From positions 1-50,875 of the forward strand of contig JAMPIW010000009.1 in the NCBI GenBank assembly GCA_040183005.1: a stretch of 50,875 bases of DNA, written 5' to 3'. The notes under the pieces were generated by a model, which saw nothing but the letters and a program-made list of their open reading frames with translations, was not told the origin of the DNA and made no database searches. Origin of the DNA: Gammaproteobacteria bacterium (GTDB lineage Bacteria > Pseudomonadota > Gammaproteobacteria > Ga0077554 > Ga007554). Positions 5,545 to 39,129 of this stretch are shown here, piece after piece (position 1 is the first letter of the stretch; every line of letters begins with the position of its first letter). The translations under genes and the position numbers were made by a program.

Positions 5545-7235
5545 ACGAAAAATAACTTAAAAATCTCTTGACAGGTTTTTTCTATCGAAAAAACCACTTC
5601 CTTATCTCGGTGTAAAATCTATTCTCTATTGCCGCTGGCAGGGGCTTTGATCTCTTCAATGAGCCGCCTTGCCATTTCAAGTCGAAAAAACCATTTCAGC
5701 CTGATCTGACCGTTATCAGGGGGTCGAAAAATGCCATGTTATCCTTTGGCTATTCCAAACGTATAGCCCCCCATTATTAATGGCAAGCCTAGACAAAACC
5801 TCGGTCAGAAACGAAGTCAGCCGGTTGAAAGCGGATTTTGAGCAGCTCAGTTGCGACGGTAAAGTGCCTCGCGAAACTCAGGTGCTTATGAATAGCATGT
5901 TCATGATGATGGAGCTGATGCTCTCCATTTTTCTGGAAAGAATAACCAAGAAAGACAGCCGCAACTCCAGCAAGCCCTCCTCCCAAACGGAAAAGGACGA
6001 CTCCTCGTTGAGTCATCCGGGGAGCCAGGGTAAGGGGAAAAACGAAAACGGCGCCCTGCTGAAAAACACGCGCGTCAAAGAGAGTGTGACTCTTTCTAGA
6101 GTCCGCCTCTGCGATGTATGTGGCGAAGATCTGGATAATACGCCCTGTAGTCACCATGAAAGACGGACGAAGATCGATATTGTTTTTGAGAAAGTCGTTG
6201 AGCATGTGGATGCCGAGGTCAAGCAGTGCCCGGTCTGCGATGCGACGGTCAAAGGGAAGTTCCCGGCGGATATGCACGGCCCGTTGCAATACGGCGATGG
6301 CTTAAAGGCCTTTGTCATCAATTTACTGGTGTCTCAGATGGTCGCGATCAATCGCGCGCAAACGCTGCTGACCTCCATGATCGGTGTTGTGATCTCTGAA
6401 GCCACTCTTCTGGCTTTTGTGCTGCGGCTTCATCGTGCCTTGGAGCGGTGGGAGCAGCACGCCACCGCACAGCTGCTGAAAGCACCCTCTATGCATGTGG
6501 ATGAGACCTCCTTGCGGGTGGATAAGCAAAACCACTGGATACACGTGTACTCCGCAGGGGAGATCACCCTCAAGTTTTTACATCGAAAACGGGGCACGGC
6601 AGCGATCACGTCGATCGATATTATTCCGCGCTACGATGGCGTCATCATTCATGACTGCTGGTCATCCTACTTGTCCTATGATCACTGCTCTCACGGCCTG
6701 TGCGGCTCGCATCTGCTGCGCGAATTGACGTTCATTGTTGACGCCAATGACTATGCCTGGGCGCGCCACATGAAACGCCTTTTACAGGAGAGCTGCGCCA
6801 CCGTCTCCAGAAGCACGGAAAAGAGATTGACCGATGAAGCGCTGGCGCGGTTGCAAAAGCGCTACCGCACGATTCTCACCCGTGGCGAAAAAGAGCTTCC
6901 ACCTATTCCCCAAAAGCCCAGCGGGAAACGCGGCAAACTCGCCAAGTCAGATGCACACAATCTGCTGGACCGATTGCAAAAACATGAGGCATCCGTCCTG
7001 CTGTTCGCCAAAAACCCTCATGTCGCCTTCACCAATAACCGGGCCGAGCGTGATTTGAGAATGTCCAAGGTGAAGCAAAAGGTCTCTGGCTGTTTCCGCT
7101 CAGAGATTTATGCTCAGGCTTATTGCCGAATATCAAGCTATCTGCAAACTATGGCCAACAAGGGACATAATCCTCTTATTGCGATTCAAATGGCTCTCGC
7201 GGGTGAGGTCAACATAATCGGGGGTGAGTAGTTAC
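5526..7235 (+). mobile_element. IS66-family insertion sequence, single-gene type
   Basis: The left end gtaactactcactccc pairs with the right end gggggtgagtagttac; GTAA ends are usual for IS66. It contains only a tnpC-like transposase, without tnpA or tnpB, as in the ISBst12 subgroup. No matching 8-bp target duplication was found. A 32-bp inverted repeat blurs the boundaries: it lies inside the left end at 5657-5688 and immediately outside the right end at 7236-7267. The element separates the ankyrin gene from the membrane-protein gene. The 235 bp before the transposase hold no other gene. Confidence 0.8.
5780..7231 (+). CDS. IS66-family transposase (TnpC-like)
   Basis: A 483-residue DDE transposase with family architecture. 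There is a helical leucine-rich N-terminus, a low-complexity linker rich in Ser, Lys and Gly, and a zinc-binding segment (RLCDVCGEDL ... CPVCDATVKG). The catalytic core has MHVDETSLRVDKQNHWIHVY (first D), IIHDCWSSYLSYDHC (second D) and NNRAERDLRMSKVKQKVSGC (E). The length fits. The frame is uninterrupted and the stop lies in the right terminal repeat, as is common for the family. Probably still functional. Confidence 0.9.
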   Translation: MASLDKTSVRNEVSRLKADFEQLSCDGKVPRETQVLMNSMFMMMELMLSIFLERITKKDSRNSSKPSSQTEKDDSSLSHPGSQGKGKNENGALLKNTRVKESVTLSRVRLCDVCGEDLDNTPCSHHERRTKIDIVFEKVVEHVDAEVKQCPVCDATVKGKFPADMHGPLQYGDGLKAFVINLLVSQMVAINRAQTLLTSMIGVVISEATLLAFVLRLHRALERWEQHATAQLLKAPSMHVDETSLRVDKQNHWIHVYSAGEITLKFLHRKRGTAAITSIDIIPRYDGVIIHDCWSSYLSYDHCSHGLCGSHLLRELTFIVDANDYAWARHMKRLLQESCATVSRSTEKRLTDEALARLQKRYRTILTRGEKELPPIPQKPSGKRGKLAKSDAHNLLDRLQKHEASVLLFAKNPHVAFTNNRAERDLRMSKVKQKVSGCFRSEIYAQAYCRISSYLQTMANKGHNPLIAIQMALAGEVNIIGGE

Positions 7236-7775
7236 TTTTCGACTTGAAATGGCAAGGCGGCTCATTGCCGAATCTGGCTTTGCCTTCAAAACGATTACAC
7301 GGAACCCAAGCAAGGCAATCAACACCAGCATGGCAGTAAAGCCGAAACCAATAAACAAGTTGATCCTGATTGGAGCAGACGCCGGATGTTCAAACTGGAT
7401 GTAGTAACCCAGATAACCAAGAAAGCTTGCACCAAGCCCAAACGCGGCGAGAAGGATGTCGGTAGCAAGCTTAGTGAGAACGGACGTTACGGCAAAACCA
7501 GCGGAAGACAAATTTCGGTTTTCAGGAAGTTTCAGCGAGATATTTTTCGAGAAGCAACCAACGATCCAGAAAATCAGGCCAAAGGAACCGAGGACATTCC
7601 AATATTCGCCTTTGTTACCTCCACGCACCGCATCGGAAACGTATTGCCCACCGTTTTCATTTGCGAGAGATGCCAAATAGTAAAATAGAAAAGCAATTCC
7701 AGCCCAAAGCACCAGACGATAAAGTAGGTCGCCGACCGGATGTTTCTCCAACAGCTTAGCAAAGTCGAATGTCAT
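7209..7775 (-). pseudogene. Membrane protein of unknown function, 3' end replaced by IS66
   Basis: Starts MTFDFAKLLEKHPVGD. Four hydrophobic segments are visible (LVLWAGIAFLFYYLA, VLGSFGLIFWIVGCF, ILLAAFGLGASFLGYLGY, INLFIGFGFTAMLVLIALLG), so it is an inner-membrane protein. I do not recognise the family. The final residues VTTHPRLC derive from the IS66 end and the natural C-terminus and attC are gone. The residues just before them (SAMSRLAISSRK) lie in the 32-bp inverted repeat, so they too may not be original. It is the cassette next to C40 in the same orientation. Confidence 0.6.
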
Positions 7776-7778
7776 GAT

Positions 7779-7898
7779 GGCTAACGTTAAATTAAGGGGC
7801 ACGCCAACGATGAAGTCGGAACAACGCCCCTGCGTTGATGCAACCCATGACATAAAAATGCCTCGCCAAGGCGTGTCCCCTTGAATGCAATGTTAGAA
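7779..7898 (-). other. attC of cassette C40 (long type)
   Basis: 120 bp; outer cores ggctaac and gttagaa on the plus strand, inner arms aaggggcacgcc and ggcgtgtcccctt. First surviving attC to the right of the IS-rich zone. Confidence 0.9.
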
Positions 7899-8453
7899 CG
7901 CGGCGGTGCAGCGAACGATAAACATGAAAAGAACTCTGCACCTGGCACCGCCACTGTTTTTCAAACCTTCGATAGGATTACTGTACTCGAACCGTTTACC
8001 GTTGAACAGCGCCCGTGAACGGGCTTTATCTGACGCGGCTAAAAAAGGCCTTGCTACCGGCGGCGCCGCCCGAAAAGAAATGACGCTGATGGATAGAACT
8101 TTTTGGCTGCAAAGCTCACAGGCACCGGAAAGAAATAACACCCCTGGCAAAAACGCTGCTCCTGGCGCCGCCACTGTTTTTAAAACCCTAAATTAGGATT
8201 ACTGCACCTGCACCGTTTACCGTTGAACAGAACCCATGAACGGGCTTTATCTGACGCGGCCAAAAAAGACTCTGCTACACGCAGCACCGCCCAAAAAGAA
8301 ATGACGCTGCTGGAAGGGGTGCTTGCTCTGGCAAAGCTCAAATGCACTGGAAAGAAATAACACCATTGGCAAGAACCTAAAACCAAAAGCCACCCGTGTG
8401 GCTGATGCCAGACTCTCGCCAACACGCTCGACAGAACTACAGCCTGATGAGCG
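7899..8453 (-). repeat. Body of cassette C40: no convincing gene, internal 220-bp duplication
   Basis: The segment repeats itself with a 220-bp period: cctggcaccgccactgtttt at 7941 and cctggcgccgccactgtttt at 8161, both followed by related sequence including gaacgggctttatctgacgcg. The whole cassette (7785-8459) recurs unchanged, as far as I compared, at 29040-29714 (C13). A minus-strand frame at 7893-8174 ends in CTAAF-type sequence at the attC, like the frames in C24-C26 (LFMFIVRCTAAF), but it has no strong ribosome site. Confidence 0.75.
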
Positions 8454-11488: not shown

Positions 11489-12910
11489 GTGAGCAAGACG
11501 ACGTACCCGATCCGGCGCCACATTCCACAACGAATAATGGAGCAAGTCATGGCGCAACGCAATCGATCGCTGAGTTTGAAGTCCCCGACGTCCCGACAGG
11601 CCTTGTGCCTGACCCACCCCAACGCTGCCGGTATCGACATAGGCAGCGCCGCGCATTTTGTGGCTGTACCGCCTGATCGAGACGACGAGCCGGTGCGCGA
11701 GTTCCCGAGTTTCACCGCCGATCTCAATCGTCTGGCCGACTGGCTGGCCGCGTGCGGCGTGGACACCGTGGCGATGGAGTCCACGGGTGTGTATTGGATC
11801 CCCTTGTATGAACTGCTGGAGGCGCGTGGCTTCACCGTGCTGCTGGTCAACGCACGGCATGTCAAGAATGTCTCGGGCCGCAAGTCCGACGTGCTGGACT
11901 GCCAATGGCTGCAACAGCTCATGAGCTACGGCCTGTTGCACGGCGCGTTTCGTCCGGCCGACAACGTATGCGCGCTGCGCTCGCTGTCGCGCCAGCGGGC
12001 GATGCTGCTACGCAGCCAGGCACGGCATGTGCAGCACATGCAAAAGGCGCTCACGCAGATGAACATCCAACTGGCCAATGTCATCTCCGACGTGGTTGGC
12101 GAGACGGGGCAGAAAATTCTGCGCGCCATCGTGGCTGGAGAACGTGACGGGCGGGTGCTGGCCGCGATGAAGAATGTGCGCATCCATGCCAGTGCCGAGG
12201 ACATCGCCAAGAGCCTGCAGGGCAACTGGCGAGCTGAGCATCTGTTTGCACTCAAGCAGGCGCTGGCCTTGTTCGACTTCTATGGCGCGCAACTGACCGA
12301 GCGCGACCGGGAGATTGAGCAGCAACTGCAAAGCCTGCAAGTTCACGACGGCGAGCCCGCCAAGGGCAAGAAGAGAGGCCGCGCGCGCAATGCCCCGAAG
12401 TTTGATCTGCGCACGCAGCTGTTCAAGATGTGCGGCGTAGACCTCACGCGCATCGACGGTATCGACGTCACCACAGCGCTGGTGGTGGCCTCAGAGGTGG
12501 GCACCGATATGTCACGGTTCCCCACGGACAAGCACTTCGCCTCGTGGATGGGGTTGTGCCCGGGCACCAGGATTACTGGCGGCAAGGTGCTCTCCGGCAA
12601 GACCAAGCGCTGCGCCAATCGCGCCGCCCAGGCTCTGCGATTGGCTGCTGCCGCGTTACGCAGCAGCCAATCGGCGCTGGGCGCATACTTCCGTCGGATG
12701 TGCTCACGCATGGACAAACCCAAAGCAGTGACAGCCACCGCTCACAAGCTGGCTCGGTTGATCTACGCAATGCTGACCAAGGGCGAGGAGTACACCGACC
12801 AGGGGCAGCACTACTACGAGGAGCGGTACCGCGAACGCGTGCTACATCAGTTGAACAAGCGCGCCGAAAAGCTCGGTATGAAACTCGTCGCCACTGAGCA
12901 GCCTGCCTAA
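11489..12910 (+). CDS. IS110-family transposase (DEDD recombinase)
   Basis: A 473-residue transposase. The N-terminal RuvC-like DEDD domain has AAGIDIGSAAHFVAV (first D), VAMESTGVYWIPLYELLEA (E) and GRKSDVLDCQWLQQLMSYGL (D pair). A coiled middle follows (QHMQKALTQMN ...), then the C-terminal Transposase_20 domain with GIDVTTALVVASEVG and the RSSQSALGAYFRRM segment. The length is slightly above average because of a basic N-terminal extension; the frame begins with GTG at 11489, with an in-frame ATG at 11537. Intact, and nearly identical to copy 1. Confidence 0.9.
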   Translation: MSKTTYPIRRHIPQRIMEQVMAQRNRSLSLKSPTSRQALCLTHPNAAGIDIGSAAHFVAVPPDRDDEPVREFPSFTADLNRLADWLAACGVDTVAMESTGVYWIPLYELLEARGFTVLLVNARHVKNVSGRKSDVLDCQWLQQLMSYGLLHGAFRPADNVCALRSLSRQRAMLLRSQARHVQHMQKALTQMNIQLANVISDVVGETGQKILRAIVAGERDGRVLAAMKNVRIHASAEDIAKSLQGNWRAEHLFALKQALALFDFYGAQLTERDREIEQQLQSLQVHDGEPAKGKKRGRARNAPKFDLRTQLFKMCGVDLTRIDGIDVTTALVVASEVGTDMSRFPTDKHFASWMGLCPGTRITGGKVLSGKTKRCANRAAQALRLAAAALRSSQSALGAYFRRMCSRMDKPKAVTATAHKLARLIYAMLTKGEEYTDQGQHYYEERYRERVLHQLNKRAEKLGMKLVATEQPA

Positions 12911-12954
12911 AACACTCATGCTAAATCAATCACTTGGTAGGTGTTTCTTAAGAG

Positions 12955-13271
12955 GCCTGGGAAGACACTGCACAAGACGTACCCACCCGCCAAAACTTTG
13001 AACAACATTAACAGGCTGATGTTACTCGCGCCAGTGCGAACCCTTTGCGCGTGACCCCGGCTTGCGTCACGCGGTGGAGACGACGATAACTGAGGGGTAA
13101 CACCACAGATCGGAGAACCCCCATCATTACTCGCAACCTTAGCGTGTCGCAAACGGATAAAAGGCTGGGAAGAACCCTGTACCCGAAGCGACCCTCGCAC
13201 AGATAACGCTGGGCAGGACGATGCCGCCGGAATCTTGCCAACACACTTGGCCGAACCAAAGTCTGATGACC
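12955..13271 (-). repeat. Body of cassette C35: ORF-less, family A
   Basis: Begins gcctgggaagacactgcacaagacg, the same opening as C31, C14, C8 and C7, but has diverged inside. No frame in cassette orientation has a credible start and codon pattern. Confidence 0.65.
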
Positions 13272-14120: not shown

Positions 14121-14397
14121 CCGACGCGCTCTGAGAGCTATGTTAGACCAACGCGCTCAAGAAAAAAGCCCGTTTTATTTCCTTGCGCTTGATGCCACCC
14201 GCACAAAAACTAGCCAAGTCGAGAAAGCCAAAAAAGTTACCCAATGCTTGCCAAGAAACGACTCACCACGGAGAGGAGTGAAGCTTGTCCGCGACCGCTG
14301 CACTTTCCAGCAAGCCGCACTCCTTGGCCAGAAATAGGCTGAACGTGTGATGCGACGTGTTACTCCTGCACTGAAAAGTAACTGCTCTTTTCAGATT
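14121..14397 (-). repeat. Body of cassette C33: ORF-less, family B
   Basis: Shares blocks with C23 (22193-22468): gaaaaaagccc, ccttgcgcttgatgccacccgcacaaaaact, gccaagaaacgactc and the end ctgaaaagtaactgctcttttcagatt. No credible gene in cassette orientation. Confidence 0.65.
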
Positions 14398-15565: not shown

Positions 15566-15685
15566 GCCTAACGCCGAATTAAGGGGCACGCCAACGAGGA
15601 GGCCGGAACAACGCCCCTGCGCTGATGAAACCCATGACTAAAAAATGCCTCGCCAAGGCGTGTCCCCTTGAATGACGTGTTAGGC
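15566..15685 (-). other. attC of cassette C31 (long type)
   Basis: 120 bp, cores gcctaac and gttaggc; interior identical to the C14 attC at 28449-28568. Confidence 0.9.
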
Positions 15686-16150
15686 CTGGGAAGGCGCTGC
15701 ACAAGACGCGCCCACACACCAAAACCCTTGAACGCAACATTAACAGGCCAATGTGACCCACCCCGGCTTGCGTCGCGCCGCATGGCGTGGCGCAAACGGA
15801 AAGGGCTACAGCGTAAAATCTGCCCGCAACCACCGCGCCGCTGCCCGCACTCCTTGGCCCGCAATGGAATGGGTGCGTGATGCGAAGAGCACCGTTCTTT
15901 TGCCTTGCGCTTGATGCCACCCGCACAAGAAACGTGCTAAAGCATAGAAGCTAAAAAGTTATCCGGCACTGGCACATCATAGGACGGAGTGAAGACTGTC
16001 CGCAACCGCTGAGATTGCCCTCTGGCCGTAACCCATAACCGGAGAGAGGACGAAACTCAGTGGGCAACGAAGTAAATACTTCTCGGGCATTCTTGAGCCA
16101 GCTTTCCGGAACTTACCCACACACCGAAAAACGAACACGCTTTTCAGATT
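15686..16150 (-). repeat. Body of cassette C31: ORF-less, family A; duplicate of C14
   Basis: The cassette from the crossover base at 15572 to 16156 (585 bp) matches 28455-29039 wherever I compared it. It begins ctgggaaggcgctgcacaagacgcg and contains cgccgcatggcgtggcgcaaacggaaagg. No frame in cassette orientation has a ribosome site and credible start. Confidence 0.8.
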
Positions 16151-16213
16151 GCCTAACGTAAAGTTGAGGGGCGCGCCGCTTTTGGCGCGTCCCTCTCGAA
16201 CGCGTTGTTGGAC
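16151..16213 (-). other. attC of cassette C30 (short type)
   Basis: 63 bp, cores gcctaac and gttggac, hairpin ggcgcgccgcttttggcgcgtcc. Confidence 0.88.
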
Positions 16214-16256
16214 AATGCACTCTCAGAGGGTCGCATAGTGATCGGTGCCCCTAGGT

Positions 16257-17237
16257 TCAATCCTCATGCTCCAGAGTTATGACGACATTTCCCTTCTTGC
16301 GCCCGGTGTCGACGTAGCGGTGAGCTTCGGCGATCTGCTCGAACGGATAGCGCCGATCGATGACGGGTTTGTATTCTCCCGCCTCCGCCAGCTTCGCAAG
16401 GAAACGCAAATCCTTGGCGTGCCCGGTTGCCGGTCCAGCGATGATTTTCTTACTGCTCGCCATCGACACCCATGGAGCCCGAAGCATTGCTGGCAGCCCT
16501 GCTAAAACCAGAAGCAGGCGTCAGCCCTTCTTTAACGAATCCTTGCTGCGGGAGAACGGGGCCGTGCCGGCGGTATCGACAATGACATCATAGGTTTCGC
16601 CATTGCACGTGAAGCCCTCTTTGGTGTAGTCGATGACCCGCGTCGCGCCCAGAGATTTCACCAGTTCCAAGTTCGCGGTGCTGCACACCCCGGTCACCTC
16701 TGCTCCGAAGTGCCTGGCAAGCTGCACCGCCGCGGTGCCTACCGCGCCGGAAGCGCCATTGATAAGCACCCGTTCCCCGCGCTGAAGTTTTGCCCTCTTA
16801 AAGAAACTCAACGCCGTGGTGCCACCAAAGGAAAGTGCGGCGGCTTCATCGTAGGTCAGGTTGTGCGGTTTTAATGCCACTGCTCCGTCTTCCGGCATGC
16901 ATTTGTACTCCGCATGACAACCCATGCTGAAATCGCTAAATGCAAAGACCGGGTCGCCGACTTTGAATTTGCTGACCTGTTTGCCGACCGACTCAATTTC
17001 ACCGGCGAGCTCGGTTCCTAGAATCGGCTGCCTGGGTTTTGAAATTCCAAAAATCAAAGGCGCAATGAGTCCGAAGCCGGAAGGCAGATTGAGACTTCGC
17101 ACCCTCCAGTCCCCGGATGTCACCGTTGTCGCACGAATTTTTATCAGGACTTCATTGTCCTTGGGGACAGGCGTATCGACCTCCTTCACCTGAAGAACAT
17201 CGGGTGGCCCATATTTTTCATACACAATTGCTTTCAT
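16257..17237 (-). pseudogene. Zinc-independent NAD(P)-dependent oxidoreductase (quinone reductase/MDR type) with internal stop (C30)
   Basis: A medium-chain dehydrogenase of about 326 codons. The GroES-like N-terminus begins MKAIVYEKYGPPDVLQVKEV; GTELAGEIESVGKQV and the Rossmann glycine motif LINGASGAVGTAAVQLARHF are intact. An in-frame TGA at 16521-16523 interrupts the frame after DSLKKG; the same frame resumes as [13 protein letters not shown] and runs to LEHED at 16257. The family has Gly or Arg here, so one substitution (GGA or CGA to TGA) explains it. It lacks the structural zinc cysteines, as in quinone oxidoreductases. The longer upstream fragment lacks the last Rossmann strands and is probably inactive. 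Confidence 0.88.
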
Positions 17238-17283
17238 ACGTTATCGCCCTCGAAAGTTGCTTTGAACCGCAGTCTTTCGCATT

Positions 17284-20030: not shown

Positions 20031-20756
20031 TCATGCATGGTCCTCCCAGTAGCCCGATAAATCAAAGTACTTTCTTGCGAAAGAGCTGAGTTGATCCGGG
20101 GAGGGCTGCCACCTGCCATAGATTCTTGCCCGAATGTAGTCCGGGCGTTCGCACGATTCGTCGAGTTCGACGAGTTCGAGCGCTCCAGGTTGCCAACACT
20201 CCAGGATGTCAGCCACTAGAACCTCCCCCGAAACTTTAATATTCCACGACCCATCGAACTCGGGGCAGAACCTCAGGGACCGGTTCTCTGAGTCGCACCA
20301 GAAGATCACGTCATCCAGTTTCATAGTAAGAAGTGAATCAGTGCTCTTCAGGAAGTACCAGACGAAGTCAACGTATCTGCGGCATTCATCAACGCTCGGT
20401 GGAGCACGATCCATATGCTCGATTGAGTTTCGTATCTCGAACAATTCCTTCAGCAATGCAGGTCGAATTATTCCGTAGAACTGAAACTTCTCTAGCGTCT
20501 TCTTTTGATTTAAAAATGGCAGCGCGTCAAACGAGTAGGCATTCGAAAGCGCCTTCAACCGGTGATTGACTGCGCGCTTCAAACCAGTGATCGCGTCCGC
20601 AAGAGAGAACTCAGAGCTGCCTGGAGAGATCAACGAGCTCGCATGCCGCCATATATCGTGAGCTCTCCCGACGATGCGCTCTTCTTCATCGTCTGAAAGA
20701 CCAGAGCCATTGTCGCTGTAGTAGTTCCAATCCAGGACTTCACCACAAATGAACAT
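20031..20756 (-). CDS. Protein of unknown function, HEPN/DUF4145-like middle (C27)
   Basis: A 241-residue cytoplasmic protein beginning MFICGEVLDWNYYSD. A helical middle part includes GLKRAVNHRLKALSNAY and LLKELFEIRNSIEHMDRAPP. The RNSIEH segment fits the HEPN R-N-x-x-x-H active-site motif of metal-independent RNases. A beta-rich C-terminal part follows (GSWNIKVSGEVLVADILECW). I see no named family. About 80 bp separate the stop from attC; a short ATGA-coupled frame there runs through attC and is not credible. Confidence 0.65.
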   Translation of the reverse strand: MFICGEVLDWNYYSDNGSGLSDDEEERIVGRAHDIWRHASSLISPGSSEFSLADAITGLKRAVNHRLKALSNAYSFDALPFLNQKKTLEKFQFYGIIRPALLKELFEIRNSIEHMDRAPPSVDECRRYVDFVWYFLKSTDSLLTMKLDDVIFWCDSENRSLRFCPEFDGSWNIKVSGEVLVADILECWQPGALELVELDESCERPDYIRARIYGRWQPSPDQLSSFARKYFDLSGYWEDHA

Positions 20757-20779
20757 TGAAGAACCTACAGGTTGTGGTT

Positions 20780-20900
20780 GCCTAACGTTAAATTAAGGGG
20801 CACGCCAACGATGAAGCCGGAACAATACCCCAATGCTGACGAAACCCGTGAACCCAAAAATGCCTCGCTAAGGCGTGTCCCCTTGAATGCAATGTTAGAA
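20780..20900 (-). other. attC of cassette C26 (long type)
   Basis: 121 bp, cores gcctaac and gttagaa; first of three near-identical tandem cassettes. Confidence 0.9.
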
Positions 20901-21209
20901 CGCGGCGGTGCAGTGAATTATGAACATGAAAAGAAGTGAACACGTTGCACCACCGCTGTTTTTCAAGACCTGGAAAGGATTACTGTAGCCGAATCGTTTA
21001 CTGTTTAACAGCGCCCGTGAACCTGACTTTACCCTGGAGAGTCGAGAAACCCGCATCGGCGGGGACACGGCCCAAAAAGAACCGGCGCGGCGAGAAAGAA
21101 CCCTTGCGCTTGCAAGGCTTGACGACACCGCAAAGAAACAACGCCGCTGGCAAAAACACCGCGCCTGAATGCCGCCAATGCGCCCAACAAAATAAACACC
21201 TTATGAGCG
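20901..21209 (-). repeat. Body of cassette C26: family C, tandem unit 1
   Basis: About 310 bp; with its attC the cassette is 430 bp (20786-21215). A minus-strand frame (20895-21128) ends LFMFIIHCTAAF with its stop at the attC, as in C25 and C40. No strong ribosome site. Confidence 0.7.
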
Positions 21210-21330
21210 CTCTAACGTTAAATTAAGGGGCACGCCAATGATGAAGCCAGAGCAACGCCCCAACGATGACGAAACCCGTGAACCCAAAAATGCCTCGCTA
21301 AGGCGTGTCCCCTTGAATGCAATGTTAGAA
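21210..21330 (-). other. attC of cassette C25 (long type)
   Basis: 121 bp, cores ctctaac and gttagaa. Confidence 0.9.
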
Positions 21331-21639
21331 CGCGGCGGTGCAGTGAATGATGATCATGAAAAGAATTGAACACTTGGCACCGCCACTGTTTTTCAAGCCC
21401 CGAATAGAATTACTGTAGCCGAATCGTTTACTGTTTAACAGCGCCCGTGAACCTGATTTTACCCTGGAGAGTTGAGAAACCCATACCAGTGGGGACACGG
21501 CCAAAAAAGAACCGGCGCGGTGAGAAAGAACCCATGCGCTTGCAAGGCTTGATGACACCGCAAAGAAACAACGCCGCTGGCAAAAACACCGCGCCTGAAT
21601 GCCGCCAATGCGCCCAACAAAATAAACACCTTATGAGCG
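21331..21639 (-). repeat. Body of cassette C25: family C, tandem unit 2
   Basis: 430-bp cassette (21216-21645), very similar to C26 and C24 with scattered substitutions. The minus-strand frame at 21325-21558 ends LFMIIIHCTAAF. Confidence 0.7.
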
Positions 21640-21760
21640 CTCTAACGTTAAATTAAGGGGCACGCCAACGATGAAGCCGGAACAATACCCCAATGCTGAC
21701 GAAACCCGTGAACCCAAAAATGCCTCGCTAAGGCGTGTCCCCTTGAATGCAATGTTAGAA
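21640..21760 (-). other. attC of cassette C24 (long type)
   Basis: 121 bp, cores ctctaac and gttagaa. Confidence 0.9.
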
Positions 21761-22070
21761 CGCGGCGGTGCGGCGAATTATGAACATGAAAAGAAGTGAA
21801 CACGTTGCACCACCGCTGTTTTTCAAGCCCTGGAAAAGGATTACTTTAGCCGAACCCTTCACCGTTGAACAGCGCCCGTGAACCTGATTTTACCCTGGAG
21901 ATTTGAGAAACCCATACCAGTGGGGACACGGCCAAAAAAGAACCGGCGCGGCGATAAAGAACCCCTGCGCTTGCAAGGCTTGGCGACACCGCAAAGAAAC
22001 AACGCCGCTGGCAAAAACACCGCGCCTGAATGCCGCCAATTCGCCCAACAAAATAAACACCTTATGAGCG
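21761..22070 (-). repeat. Body of cassette C24: family C, tandem unit 3
   Basis: 431-bp cassette (21646-22076). One extra A (ggaaaagg versus ggaaagg in C26) breaks the upstream part of the shared minus-strand frame, but the last codons (FMFIIRRTAAF) are kept. Confidence 0.7.
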
Positions 22071-22192
22071 CTCTAACGTAAGAATTAAGGGGCACGCCAA
22101 CGATAAGGCCGGAACAACGCCCCTGCGCTGATGAAACCCGTGAGCCTAAAAATGCCTCGCCAAGGCGTGTCCCCTTGAATGACGTGTTAGGC
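22071..22192 (-). other. attC of cassette C23 (long type)
   Basis: 122 bp, cores ctctaac and gttaggc; gacgtgttag subtype. Confidence 0.9.
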
Positions 22193-22468
22193 CTGGCGTT
22201 CCTGAGCACTATATTAGTACCAACGCGCCCGAGAAAAAAGCCTTGTAAGTGCCTTGCGCTTGATGCCACCCGCACAAAAACTTGCCAGGGCTAGAAAGCT
22301 GAAAAAGTTACCCAACGCTTGCCAAGAAACAACTCGCCACGGAGCAGCGTGATGTCTGTCCGAGACCGCTGGGCCTGCTCTCTGGCCGCACTTCTTGGCC
22401 GGAAATGGACTGAGTGCGTGATGCGACGTGTTACCCCTGCACTGAAAAGTAACTGCTCTTTTCAGATT
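22193..22468 (-). repeat. Body of cassette C23: ORF-less, family B
   Basis: Similar along its length to C33 (14121-14397) and, at its start, to 24462-24580 (ctggcgttcctgagca). No credible gene. Confidence 0.65.
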
Positions 22469-22523
22469 GCCTAACGCAAAGCTAAACGGCGGCGCAGCCG
22501 TCCGCTTGAGCGCCGGGTTAGCC
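22469..22523 (-). other. attC of cassette C22 (short type)
   Basis: 55 bp, cores gcctaac and gttagcc; interior nearly the same as the C34 attC. Gene stop in right core. Confidence 0.88.
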
Positions 22524-23261
22524 ATTATCAATTCCAATTAGTTTAAGAAAATCTTTACCACCTAGTTCTTTGATGTTCTTTGCTGTTGATATAGTTTTAT
22601 TTAAGCCCTCGATGAATTTGAAATACTTGCTCAAAAGCGCACTTTCTTTTCCAGAGATTGATTTTGAGCGTATTTCCTCTCTGTGCAAAATAATAGAGCC
22701 AAGATTTAATTCCACCTCTCGCTGAATACCTTCGATTCCCTTGATTTTGAAAGAAATGATAGCTTGCCTCAGGCCCTCTAAATTTCTAACCAATAGTTCC
22801 TTTAATGAATTATCCAATTCCGAATTAAGTATTTGATCAGTTAACTCAGATAACGACTGTTTTATAGAATCGATTTCTTCATTAGGTATTTTCGTATAAT
22901 TCGTAACCCGATTTAATTTGTCAGAGCAAAACTGAAGCCCATAAATTGTTGGCTCATCTATTTGGTCTTTCCAGTGCTTCCAGCCAGCATCCAAGTTTAT
23001 ATGCGAAAGAACACGCTCTATTTGGGAGAAAGGACGAAGGTATAACTCGTGATTTATATCATTCAACTTTTCTAGTTTTTCTTTTGTTGCGTGAGTAAGC
23101 TGAATTAACTCAGCCAACATTTTGAGTATTGTACCCGTGTCTTCTTCGGGAACATCAAACACTTCAGCCCATACTTTTCTTGAAGAGTGAGCCTCGGGCT
23201 TCAGTTTTGCCTCATGAAATATGTCATACAAACGCCCGGCTGGTTCAGTTTTTACTTCCAT
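22518..23261 (-). CDS. AT-rich helical protein of unknown function (C22)
   Basis: A 247-residue cytoplasmic protein, almost entirely helical with coiled-coil-like stretches (HATKEKLEKLNDINHELY and EIDSIKQSLSELTDQILNSE). Base composition is clearly more AT-rich than neighbouring cassettes, suggesting a different origin. No nuclease or membrane motif seen; family not recognised. The TAA stop is part of the attC core. Confidence 0.7.
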   Translation of the reverse strand: MEVKTEPAGRLYDIFHEAKLKPEAHSSRKVWAEVFDVPEEDTGTILKMLAELIQLTHATKEKLEKLNDINHELYLRPFSQIERVLSHINLDAGWKHWKDQIDEPTIYGLQFCSDKLNRVTNYTKIPNEEIDSIKQSLSELTDQILNSELDNSLKELLVRNLEGLRQAIISFKIKGIEGIQREVELNLGSIILHREEIRSKSISGKESALLSKYFKFIEGLNKTISTAKNIKELGGKDFLKLIGIDNG

Positions 23262-28568: not shown

Positions 28569-29033
28569 CTGGGAAGGCGCTGCACAAGACGCGCCCACAC
28601 ACCAAAACCCTTGAACGCAACATTAACAGGCCAATGTGACCCACCCCGGCTTGCGTCGCGCCGCATGGCGTGGCGCAAACGGAAAGGGCTACAGCGTAAA
28701 ATCTGCCCGCAACCACCGCGCCGCTGCCCGCACTCCTTGGCCCGCAATGGAATGGGTGCGTGATGCGAAGAGCACCGTTCTTTTGCCTTGCGCTTGATGC
28801 CACCCGCACAAGAAACGTGCTAAAGCATAGAAGCTAAAAAGTTATCCGGCACTGGCACATCATAGGACGGAGTGAAGACTGTCCGCAACCGCTGAGATTG
28901 CCCTCTGGCCGTAACCCATAACCGGAGAGAGGACGAAACTCAGTGGGCAACGAAGTAAATACTTCTCGGGCATTCTTGAGCCAGCTTTCCGGAACTTACC
29001 CACACACCGAAAAACGAACACGCTTTTCAGATT
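28569..29033 (-). repeat. Body of cassette C14: ORF-less, family A; duplicate of C31
   Basis: Same sequence as 15686-16150 wherever compared. It sits directly next to C13, the duplicate of C40. Confidence 0.8.
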
Positions 29034-29153
29034 GCCTAACGTTAAATTAAGGGGCACGCCAACGATGAAGTCGGAACAACGCCCCTGCGTTGATGCAACC
29101 CATGACATAAAAATGCCTCGCCAAGGCGTGTCCCCTTGAATGCAATGTTAGAA
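29034..29153 (-). other. attC of cassette C13 (long type)
   Basis: 120 bp, cores gcctaac and gttagaa; interior identical to the C40 attC. Confidence 0.9.
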
Positions 29154-29708
29154 CGCGGCGGTGCAGCGAACGATAAACATGAAAAGAACTCTGCACCTGG
29201 CACCGCCACTGTTTTTCAAACCTTCGATAGGATTACTGTACTCGAACCGTTTACCGTTGAACAGCGCCCGTGAACGGGCTTTATCTGACGCGGCTAAAAA
29301 AGGCCTTGCTACCGGCGGCGCCGCCCGAAAAGAAATGACGCTGATGGATAGAACTTTTTGGCTGCAAAGCTCACAGGCACCGGAAAGAAATAACACCCCT
29401 GGCAAAAACGCTGCTCCTGGCGCCGCCACTGTTTTTAAAACCCTAAATTAGGATTACTGCACCTGCACCGTTTACCGTTGAACAGAACCCATGAACGGGC
29501 TTTATCTGACGCGGCCAAAAAAGACTCTGCTACACGCAGCACCGCCCAAAAAGAAATGACGCTGCTGGAAGGGGTGCTTGCTCTGGCAAAGCTCAAATGC
29601 ACTGGAAAGAAATAACACCATTGGCAAGAACCTAAAACCAAAAGCCACCCGTGTGGCTGATGCCAGACTCTCGCCAACACGCTCGACAGAACTACAGCCT
29701 GATGAGCG
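29154..29708 (-). repeat. Body of cassette C13: family C; duplicate of C40
   Basis: The 675-bp cassette at 29040-29714 equals 7785-8459, including the internal 220-bp duplication. No convincing gene. Confidence 0.8.
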
Positions 29709-32810: not shown

Positions 32811-33353
32811 CGGGGAAGACGCTGCTCAAGATGCACCCACACACCAAAACCCTTTAAAGCAACATTAACTGGCCGATGTGACCCGCACCGGCTTGCGTCG
32901 CGCCGTAGGCGTGGGGCAAACGGAAAGGGCTACAGCGTAAATTCTCTCCACAACCCCTGCGCCTCGGCCCGCGTTCCTTCCTCGTGGCAGATTGAACACA
33001 TGACACGAGAAGCACCGTTCTTTCGCCCTGCACGTGACGCGACCCGTACAAGAAACTTGCTAAAGCAAAAAAAGTAACAGATTACCCAGCACTGGCACAT
33101 CATATGGCGAAGTGAAACCTGCCCGCAACCCCTGTTGTGTCATCTGGCCGCAACCCATGATTGGGGAGAGTATCAAGCCCAGTGGGCGACGGAGTGAAAA
33201 CTGCTCACAACCACTAAACTTGATTCCGGCCGGTACCCATAACCGTGAAAAAGATGAAACTCAGCGAGCCACGAAGAAAACACTTTCAGGCATTCTTGCG
33301 CCAGCTCTCTGGACGTTACCCACGCAACAAAAAACGAATGCGCTTTTCAGGTT
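32811..33353 (-). repeat. Body of cassette C8: ORF-less, family A
   Basis: Shares with C7 the opening cggggaag..ctgctcaagacgcacccacacaccaaaaccc, the block ggcttgcgtcgcgccg, and the end acgaagaaaacactttcaggcattcttgcgcc. Longer than C31 because of an extra related segment near 33110-33240. No credible gene. Confidence 0.7.
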
Positions 33354-33473: not shown

Positions 33474-33925
33474 CGGGGAAGGCTATGCTCAAGACGCACC
33501 CACACACCAAAACCCTTGATGCAACATGAACAGGCCGATGTGACCCGCCCCGGCTTGCGTCGCGCCGCATGGCGTGGGGCAAACGGAAAAGGCTACAGCG
33601 TAAGCTCTCTCCGTAACCACTGCACCACTGCCCGCGCTCATTGGCTAGCAATGGAATGGGCAAGAGCACCGTTTTTTCGCCCTGCGCGTGACGCGACCCA
33701 CACAAGAAACTTGTTAAAGCAAAAAAGTAACAGACTGCCCAGCACTGGCACATCATATGGCGGAGTGAAGACTTCTCGCCACACTTGGGCTTGACTGCTG
33801 GCCGTAACCCATAACCGTGAAAAAGATGAAGCTCAGTGAGCTACGAAGAAAACACTTTCAGGCATTCTTGCGCCCGCATTCTGGATGTTACCCACGCACC
33901 GAAAAAAGAACGTTCTTTTCGGGTT
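33474..33925 (-). repeat. Body of cassette C7: ORF-less, family A
   Basis: Adjacent relative of C8; nearest ORF-less cassette to attI. No credible gene in cassette orientation. Confidence 0.7.
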
Positions 33926-38101: not shown

Positions 38102-38154
38102 CCTCACTTTATTGGCGACATTTTCCATTTTTTATCACACCTTTGGTTTTATCC

Positions 38155-39129
38155 ATGCCGCACACTCAAAATCCACCCAAATTATTAGAGCAAGTCCAGG
38201 CGAGAATTCGGGTAAAGCATTACAGTATTCGCACCGAGCGTGCATATCTCGACTGGGTTAGGCGCTACATTTTATTTCATCAGAAAAAGCATCCGGCGCA
38301 GATGGGGGCGCAGGAGGTGGAGGCTTTTTTGTCGCATTTGGCTGTGGAAGGCAATGTCGCGGCTTCGACTCAGAATCAGGCGAAAAGCGCGCTGCTGTTT
38401 TTGTACCGCGAGGTGCTGGAAATCGATCTGCCTTGGCTGGACAATGTGACGAAGGCCAGGGTGCCGCAACGCTTGCCGGTGGTGTTGACCCATGCTGAGG
38501 TGAGAATGCTTTTGGACCAGATGGAAGGGTCGCAGTGGTTGATGGCGAGCCTTTTGTATGGCGCGGGGTTGCGTCTGATGGAGTGTGTGCGACTGCGGGT
38601 AAAGGATGTCGAGTTCGAGCGGGGCGAGTTGATTGTTCGTGATGGCAAGGGACAAAAAGATCGTATGACCATGCTCCCCGCCAAGTTGGCCGAGCCGTTG
38701 CGCATGCATCTTGAGCGGGTGCAACGGCTACACGAGCAAGATCTGGCGGCGGGCTATGGCGACGCGTATCTGCCTAACGCGCTTAGTCGCAAATACCCCA
38801 ATGGTGGGCGGATGTGGGGCTGGCAATATGTCTTTCCTTCAGGCCAGCGCTCCGTTGATCCGCGCTCGGGTGTTACGCGCCGTCATCACGCGGACGAGAA
38901 GGGCCTGCAAAGAGCAGTGAAACGGGCTGTGCATGCCGCCGAGATCGTTAAACCGGCCACGCCGCACACCCTGCGGCATTCATTTGCTACCCATTTGTTG
39001 CAGTCCGGCTATGACATCCGCACTGTTCAGGAGCTGCTCGGCCATAATGACGTGAGCACTACGATGATTTATACACATGTGCTGAACAAGGGTGGCAAGG
39101 GTGTAAACAGTCCGCTGGATTTGTTGTAA
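38155..39129 (+). CDS. intI: Integron integrase IntI
   Basis: A 324-residue tyrosine recombinase that joins attC and attI sites. Counting from the ATG at 38155: the SAM-like core-binding domain holds the N-terminus, then catalytic R140 ([17 protein letters not shown]), H271/R274 ([19 protein letters not shown]), H297 ([11 protein letters not shown]) and Y306 (MIYTHVL). The integron-specific extra patch is present between ([20 protein letters not shown]). All residues needed for activity are there. A TTG 4 codons upstream is a weaker start. Divergent from all cassettes, the normal integron geometry. The gene is intact, so the array may still be dynamic. Confidence 0.96.

Follow-up and report, generated by a model that had tools for sequence, protein, structure and literature searches.

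Three consecutive integron cassettes (C26, C25 and C24) in the window, which denotes the whole 50,875-nucleotide stretch of DNA analysed (positions 1-50875 of contig C9 in a 3.33 Mb genome), are best explained, with a probability of about one half, as members of a lineage-restricted family of short-ORF cassettes, duplicated and recombining within the array, of which the extra copies are decaying. According to this explanation, the three would be tandem duplicates of a single cassette with a short protein-coding frame on the sense strand that ends at the attC core, the last 42 codons of which would have been, or in some copy would still be, under purifying selection. The surplus copies would have arisen in the array, swapped sequence with one another and entered decay, as exemplified by C24, and their retention may mainly reflect the low cost of duplication within the array. 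We infer translation of the frame, now or in the past; the transcript would probably start at the integron promoter or in cassettes lying upstream. If this is right, part of the "gene-less" integron cassettes would be genes that are small or in decay and that length cut-offs overlook; this bears on the practice of inferring promoter or RNA roles for gene-less cassettes.

The integron and its cassette array

The cassette array is situated to the left of an integron integrase gene, with the minus strand as cassette-sense strand (Table 1). As the integrase model also gave sub-cut-off matches in 14/14 control genomes, part of the integrase call is carried by the linked attC sites. The latter were located by a search for cores plus complementarity, supplemented by hand. 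In the general anatomy of attC sites, recombination takes place at the G/TT point of the core, and the cassette boundaries drawn in a preliminary description of the window coincide with this point. Each member of the triplet is an attC-bounded unit with matching recombination cores (117-bp attCs, scores 12-14). Well away from the window, contig C9 bears a single attC-like match (89 % identity; G000:C9:123089-123205; L008). The array region also includes an insertion-sequence-like element, with perfect 32-bp inverted repeats (5657-5688 and 7236-7267) around a 483-codon ORF (5780-7231). Furthermore, positions 1-926 and 12030-12955 are 99.9 % identical; the 473-codon ORF at 11489-12910 probably encodes a transposase, and the second copy forms the left edge of the window.

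Table 1. Cassettes, reading frames, multi-copy families and integrase gene in the window
Feature	Position	Strand	Remarks
Cassette C26	20786-21215	-	430 bp; insert 20898-21210, attC 20781-20897
77-codon GTG ORF of C26	20895-21128	-	conserved module is the last 42 codons, 20898-21023; stop TAA within attC core
Cassette C25	21216-21645	-	430 bp; insert 21328-21640, attC 21211-21327
77-codon GTG ORF of C25	21325-21558	-	conserved module 21328-21453
Cassette C24	21646-22076	-	431 bp; insert 21758-22071, attC 21641-21757
Broken homologue of the frame in C24	21755-21989	-	module with stop codon and 1-bp insertion
Cassette C13	7785-8459	-	675 bp; 93-codon ORF 7893-8174; decayed internal repeat
Cassette C40	29040-29714	-	675 bp; identical to C13; 93-codon ORF 29148-29429
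Family A	C26, C25, C24, C13, C40		five copies
Family B	15686-16145, 28569-29028, 33476-33920, 32813-33348		four copies, two identical over 460 bases
Family C	14131-14392, 22202-22463		two copies, 83 % identity
Integron integrase gene	38143-39129	+	E 7e-121; 403.5 bits to integrase model, under its cut-off of 435

Tandem duplication and exchange among the cassettes

The lengths given for the triplet in the preliminary description (430, 430 and 431 bp) were confirmed, as was the high similarity of its members, with inserts that are 91-93 % identical and 43 variable columns among the 431 of the whole cassettes. These variants lie in blocks: in columns 1-194 C26 mostly agrees with C24, in columns 201-222 C26 agrees with C25 throughout, and in columns 243-289 C25 mostly agrees with C24. 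This block-wise sharing points to exchange of sequence among the copies after duplication. The attC sites of C24 and C26 are identical, while that of C25 is 93.8 % identical to them.

The proposed kinship of the triplet with C40 and C13 also held, with 71-73 % identity over approximately 280 bp. When C13 was compared with C40, the sole difference among 675 compared positions fell outside the cassette, and both contain the unit a second time in decayed form (82 % identity over 229 bp). When the whole genome was searched with a profile, with 52/52 candidates scored, eight matches resulted, all inside C26, C25, C24, C40 and C13.

Distribution in other genomes

Of 185 related genomes searched at the DNA level, five gave matches, namely the window genome, G004, G006, and G037 and G031, the last two of which matched weakly, over 24 and 36 bases, and were left out of the analysis. 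Within the bacterial family, a profile search located the frame in 3/8 genomes, the window genome included; the corresponding search of the order covered these same eight genomes. All homologues found belong to this one family; G004 and G006 are both from another genus. By eye, the two copies in G006 (G6a and G6b) carry attCs of another and shorter type, and one copy is the first cassette next to the attI region, while in G004 a single module (G4) is left beside an apparent partial attC, likewise by eye. The G006 integrase homologue next to the array (L014:2009-2170) seems by eye to be truncated after approximately 50 codons, and this array may be frozen. Both ends of the cassette are conserved between the genera. 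At the 3' end this extends over 126 bases, while at the 5' end 47/60 positions are identical between C40 and G6a; past the first 11 bases the two share 36/49 identities, versus a mean of 25.5 and a maximum of 32 in 500 shuffles.

In broader samples, a peptide search was positive for 2/369 genomes of the class (the window genome and G004), and a profile search for 5/398 genomes of the phylum, comprising the window genome and four others that matched weakly (E 3.6e-4 to 0.009). On inspection of the translated loci these four matches, three of which have internal stops, were taken as chance. At least 119 stretches in genome contigs matched a 16-base pattern; these were also taken as chance and were not used. 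Among viral contigs a 20-base pattern gave no match and none of the 61 pattern matches of a peptide profile was confirmed, while protein and DNA searches of plasmids found no relative.

A reading frame on the cassette-sense strand

The triplet had been described as ORF-less. This stands for C24, whose longest sense ORF comprises 56 codons, but not for C26 and C25, each of which has a 77-codon sense ORF with conservation of the coding type, nor can it be extended to the relatives C40 and C13, with their 93-codon sense ORFs. The frames of C26, C25 and C13/C40 are in the same register, and their common terminus is TTC TAA, located within the attC core. Since cores of this kind introduce a stop codon into one of the frames in any case, the shared ending proves nothing by itself. 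Over the whole insert, the sense frame contains one stop in 106 or 121 codons (C25, C26, G6a and G6b) versus two to six in each other frame. The corresponding counts are four versus five and nine in C40, where the decayed repeat is included, and two versus four and two in C24, where the frame is shifted.

The coding test was performed on an ungapped alignment of the 43-codon tail (the 42-codon module plus the stop) of C25, C26, C40, G6a, G6b and G4, omitting C24 on account of its indel and C13 as it equals C40. In the permutations the reference sequence was kept and the substitution patterns were moved among like bases. For these six sequences, the sense frame ending at attC gave z = 3.76, a value reached in 0/1000 permutations, while the other five frames of the module showed no signal (z ≤ 0.50); antisense coding was rejected, with z-scores from -1.54 to 0.50 for the module frames of the plus strand. 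When one copy per genome was retained (C40, G6b and G4), the sense frame still yielded z = 2.78 (p = 0.003), with the others at or below 0.97. The variable columns numbered 13, 12 and 23 at codon positions 1, 2 and 3, respectively, which represents a modest bias only.

Pairwise permutation tests in the sense frame covered 7/15 possible pairs. Five of these gave low p-values (C40-G4, 0.0065; C40-G6b, 0.004; C40-G6a, 0/2000; C26-G4, 0.003; C26-G6b, 0.039), while G4-G6b (p = 0.067) and the recent copies C25-C26 (p = 0.14) fell short of significance. The pN/pS ratios ranged from 0.12 to 0.42 for all eleven pairs between genomes (C40-G4, 0.12; C40-G6, 0.27-0.29), and within genomes were 0.42 for both C25-C26 and C26-C40, 0.67 for C25-C40 and 0.74 for G6a-G6b. 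The frame is thus conserved at the protein level across genomes, as is expected of a small-protein gene cassette, with a signal that is restricted to the final 42 codons and is larger between genomes than between recent copies. In the gene-poor families B and C, which served as controls, z was at most 1.66 in 30 and six block-frame tests, respectively, on blocks less powerful than the module (B, five blocks of 60-73 bp in three sequences; C, one 220-bp block in two sequences).

Several features count against a working gene. The position of the GTG start differs between C26/C25 and C40 and no start codon is common to the copies, while no ribosome-binding motif is visible before the starts on inspection by eye. 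The part of the frame upstream of the module drifts, with no significant coding signal in the 105 bases preceding the 42 codons (z = 1.11; p = 0.15), and one of the tandem copies, C24, is broken. The frame matched zero Pfam and NCBIfam families above cut-off, and a single-sequence structure prediction of the 93-residue frame was of low confidence (pLDDT 46) and uninformative.

Alternative explanations

The preliminary description held that repeated gene-less cassettes are hard to explain as cargo, and that they may encode an RNA, carry a promoter or terminator, or simply be efficient attC donors. The recurrence of the triplet was borne out, while the conserved reading frame weakens the premise that it lacks a gene. 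It is fairly unlikely that the triplet consists of gene-less promoter cassettes that drive cassettes further down the array, where having multiple copies would be of benefit at a distance from the integron promoter. Sense promoters in gene-less cassettes have been demonstrated in Vibrio (PMC11014356) and Treponema (PMC6557892), according to the available portions of these reports, and an "empty" cassette that may recur within an array is reported in Xanthomonas (PMC12444791); the multi-copy class in the window's array is made up of gene-poor families and one of the G006 copies is located beside the attI region, both of which accord with this role. However, a promoter role does not predict codon-type conservation, and the inserts are not A+T-rich (G+C 0.51-0.53 versus 0.53 for the window). 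A sigma-70 consensus was also absent from both strands of 20500-22600, where 1.2 would be expected by chance, although this is weak evidence, as in silico detection is unreliable for gene-less cassettes, the promoters of which Blanco et al. state, in the part of their report at hand, not to be identifiable in this way (PMC11014356). The suggestion of a terminator is unsupported: the eight terminator-like sites in 20500-22600 compare with an expected 4.2 ± 2.2 in this region alone, and 4/8 represent one attC stem recurring in four attCs.

Equally, the triplet could comprise neutral or selfish passengers, that is, remnants without a present function that are equipped with good attC sites and become duplicated within the array. 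The broken C24, the decayed internal repeat of C40/C13, the slight constraint on the recent copies and the identical attCs of C24 and C26 would all suit such passengers, yet the constraint on the 42 codons between genera and the occurrence of the insert on two attC types, by which the attC is not the sole thing kept, render them unlikely. Moreover, among 19 other long-type attCs that were compared (78-91 % identical to that of C26), eleven are on single-copy cassettes. Efficient attC donation alone is similarly disfavoured, since the presence of the same insert on the shorter attC type in G006, as judged by eye, identifies the insert itself as a conserved unit. A small regulatory RNA is highly improbable. 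Precedents are provided by sRNA-Xcc1, an integron-cassette sRNA known in Xanthomonas and named in the accessible text of PMC12444791, and by the tandem amplification in Acinetobacter of a cassette array that includes a putative sRNA, which is reviewed in PMC8876359 as far as its available text extends. Close to the attC the sequence can adopt a 10-bp stem enclosing a long loop (92.9 % of cells paired), and a named two-helix structure showed a slight and weak pairing excess over shuffles (85.7 versus 83.9 %, reached by 16/500; covariation score reached by 36/500). Against this, changes on both sides of a pair were observed for 0/15 pairs of the named structure and 0/27 pairs of the predicted consensus, and the 10-bp stem is interrupted in G6a, G6b and G4. 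The z-scores of six module folds (four sequences, of which two were folded on both strands) were -1.53 to 0.31, and that of the whole cassette, attC stem included, was -2.0. Nothing in the window attained an Rfam gathering score, with the sub-threshold hits of the region at chance level (E 0.12-0.31). The cassettes share with sRNA-Xcc1 the carriage of non-classical cargo, but differ in that they show neither an RNA family match nor covarying structure; RF02221 was absent from the genome search, in which the control genomes were also blank.

Comparison with known cassettes

As in the Vibrionaceae gene-less (promoter) cassettes, in the portion of PMC11014356 available, the triplet cassettes are short, lack annotated genes and occur several times per array. 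According to the same portion, the degeneration of gene cassettes is the source of gene-less ones in at least some cases, an origin that fits the short-ORF cassette family considered here. The gene-less class was there defined by the lack of an ORF longer than 70 codons, with one cassette with a 78-aa ORF added as an exception; C26, C25, C40 and C13, at 77, 77, 93 and 93 codons, exceed this limit, and only C24 (56 codons) complies. The conserved frame likewise sets the present family apart from the Vibrionaceae cassettes as presented in that portion. The recurrent "empty" cassette of Xanthomonas (PMC12444791) is also gene-poor and may occur several times in one array, but neither a reading frame nor a tandem triplet is mentioned in the available part of that account. 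In Vibrio sp. DAT722 (PMC2945992) a large array includes multi-copy and non-coding cassettes, the latter at 25/116 positions, and both coding and non-coding cassettes are detectably expressed; this is a different organism, for which the accessible text reports no frame conservation.

Gene-poor cassettes and copy number

With the attCs masked and insertion-sequence DNA aside, the multi-copy inserts of the array fall into three gene-poor families (Table 1, families A to C). Where the longest sense ORF is shorter than 100 codons, a line that was chosen after inspection of the data, 11/12 cassettes are multi-copy, while 0/23 cassettes with longer ORFs have a full second copy, insertion-sequence DNA aside (three partial matches of 62-88 bp). 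Fisher's test of gene-poor against multi-copy status gave 2.9e-8 by cassette and 0.0014 by family. The cassettes were counted from a partly hand-compiled attC list with 34 intervals, 15683-17283 being split into two cassettes and the first cassette beside the integrase excluded. Cassettes of this kind are already known, in that recurring empty cassettes (PMC12444791) and multi-copy and non-coding cassettes (PMC2945992) have been reported in the available portions of earlier accounts. No earlier report of a link between gene-poor and multi-copy status was found in a limited literature search. This link forms a simple pattern that is testable in other chromosomal integrons. It is possible, though doubtful, that the cassettes which scans set aside as "ORF-less" include a family encoding a small protein, short and non-canonically initiated, on which purifying selection acts across genera, and that such gene-poor families constitute the integron's own multi-copy class, kept multiple while gene cassettes stay single.

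Parts of family B occur in 5/7 other genomes of the bacterial family, the best match being that in G002 (89 % over 309 bases), while family C is also found in G001 (84 %). Families B and C have a 73 % segment in common, and both family C copies as well as the family B copy at 28569-29028 start with TTAGGCAATCTGAAAAG on the sense strand. Elsewhere on the chromosome, between other genes, lies an isolated 90-bp fragment of the family C 5' end (L188:1501-1590; G000:C7:1126470-1126559). It is preceded on its sense strand by AGTTAGGC and may represent a cassette inserted outside the array.
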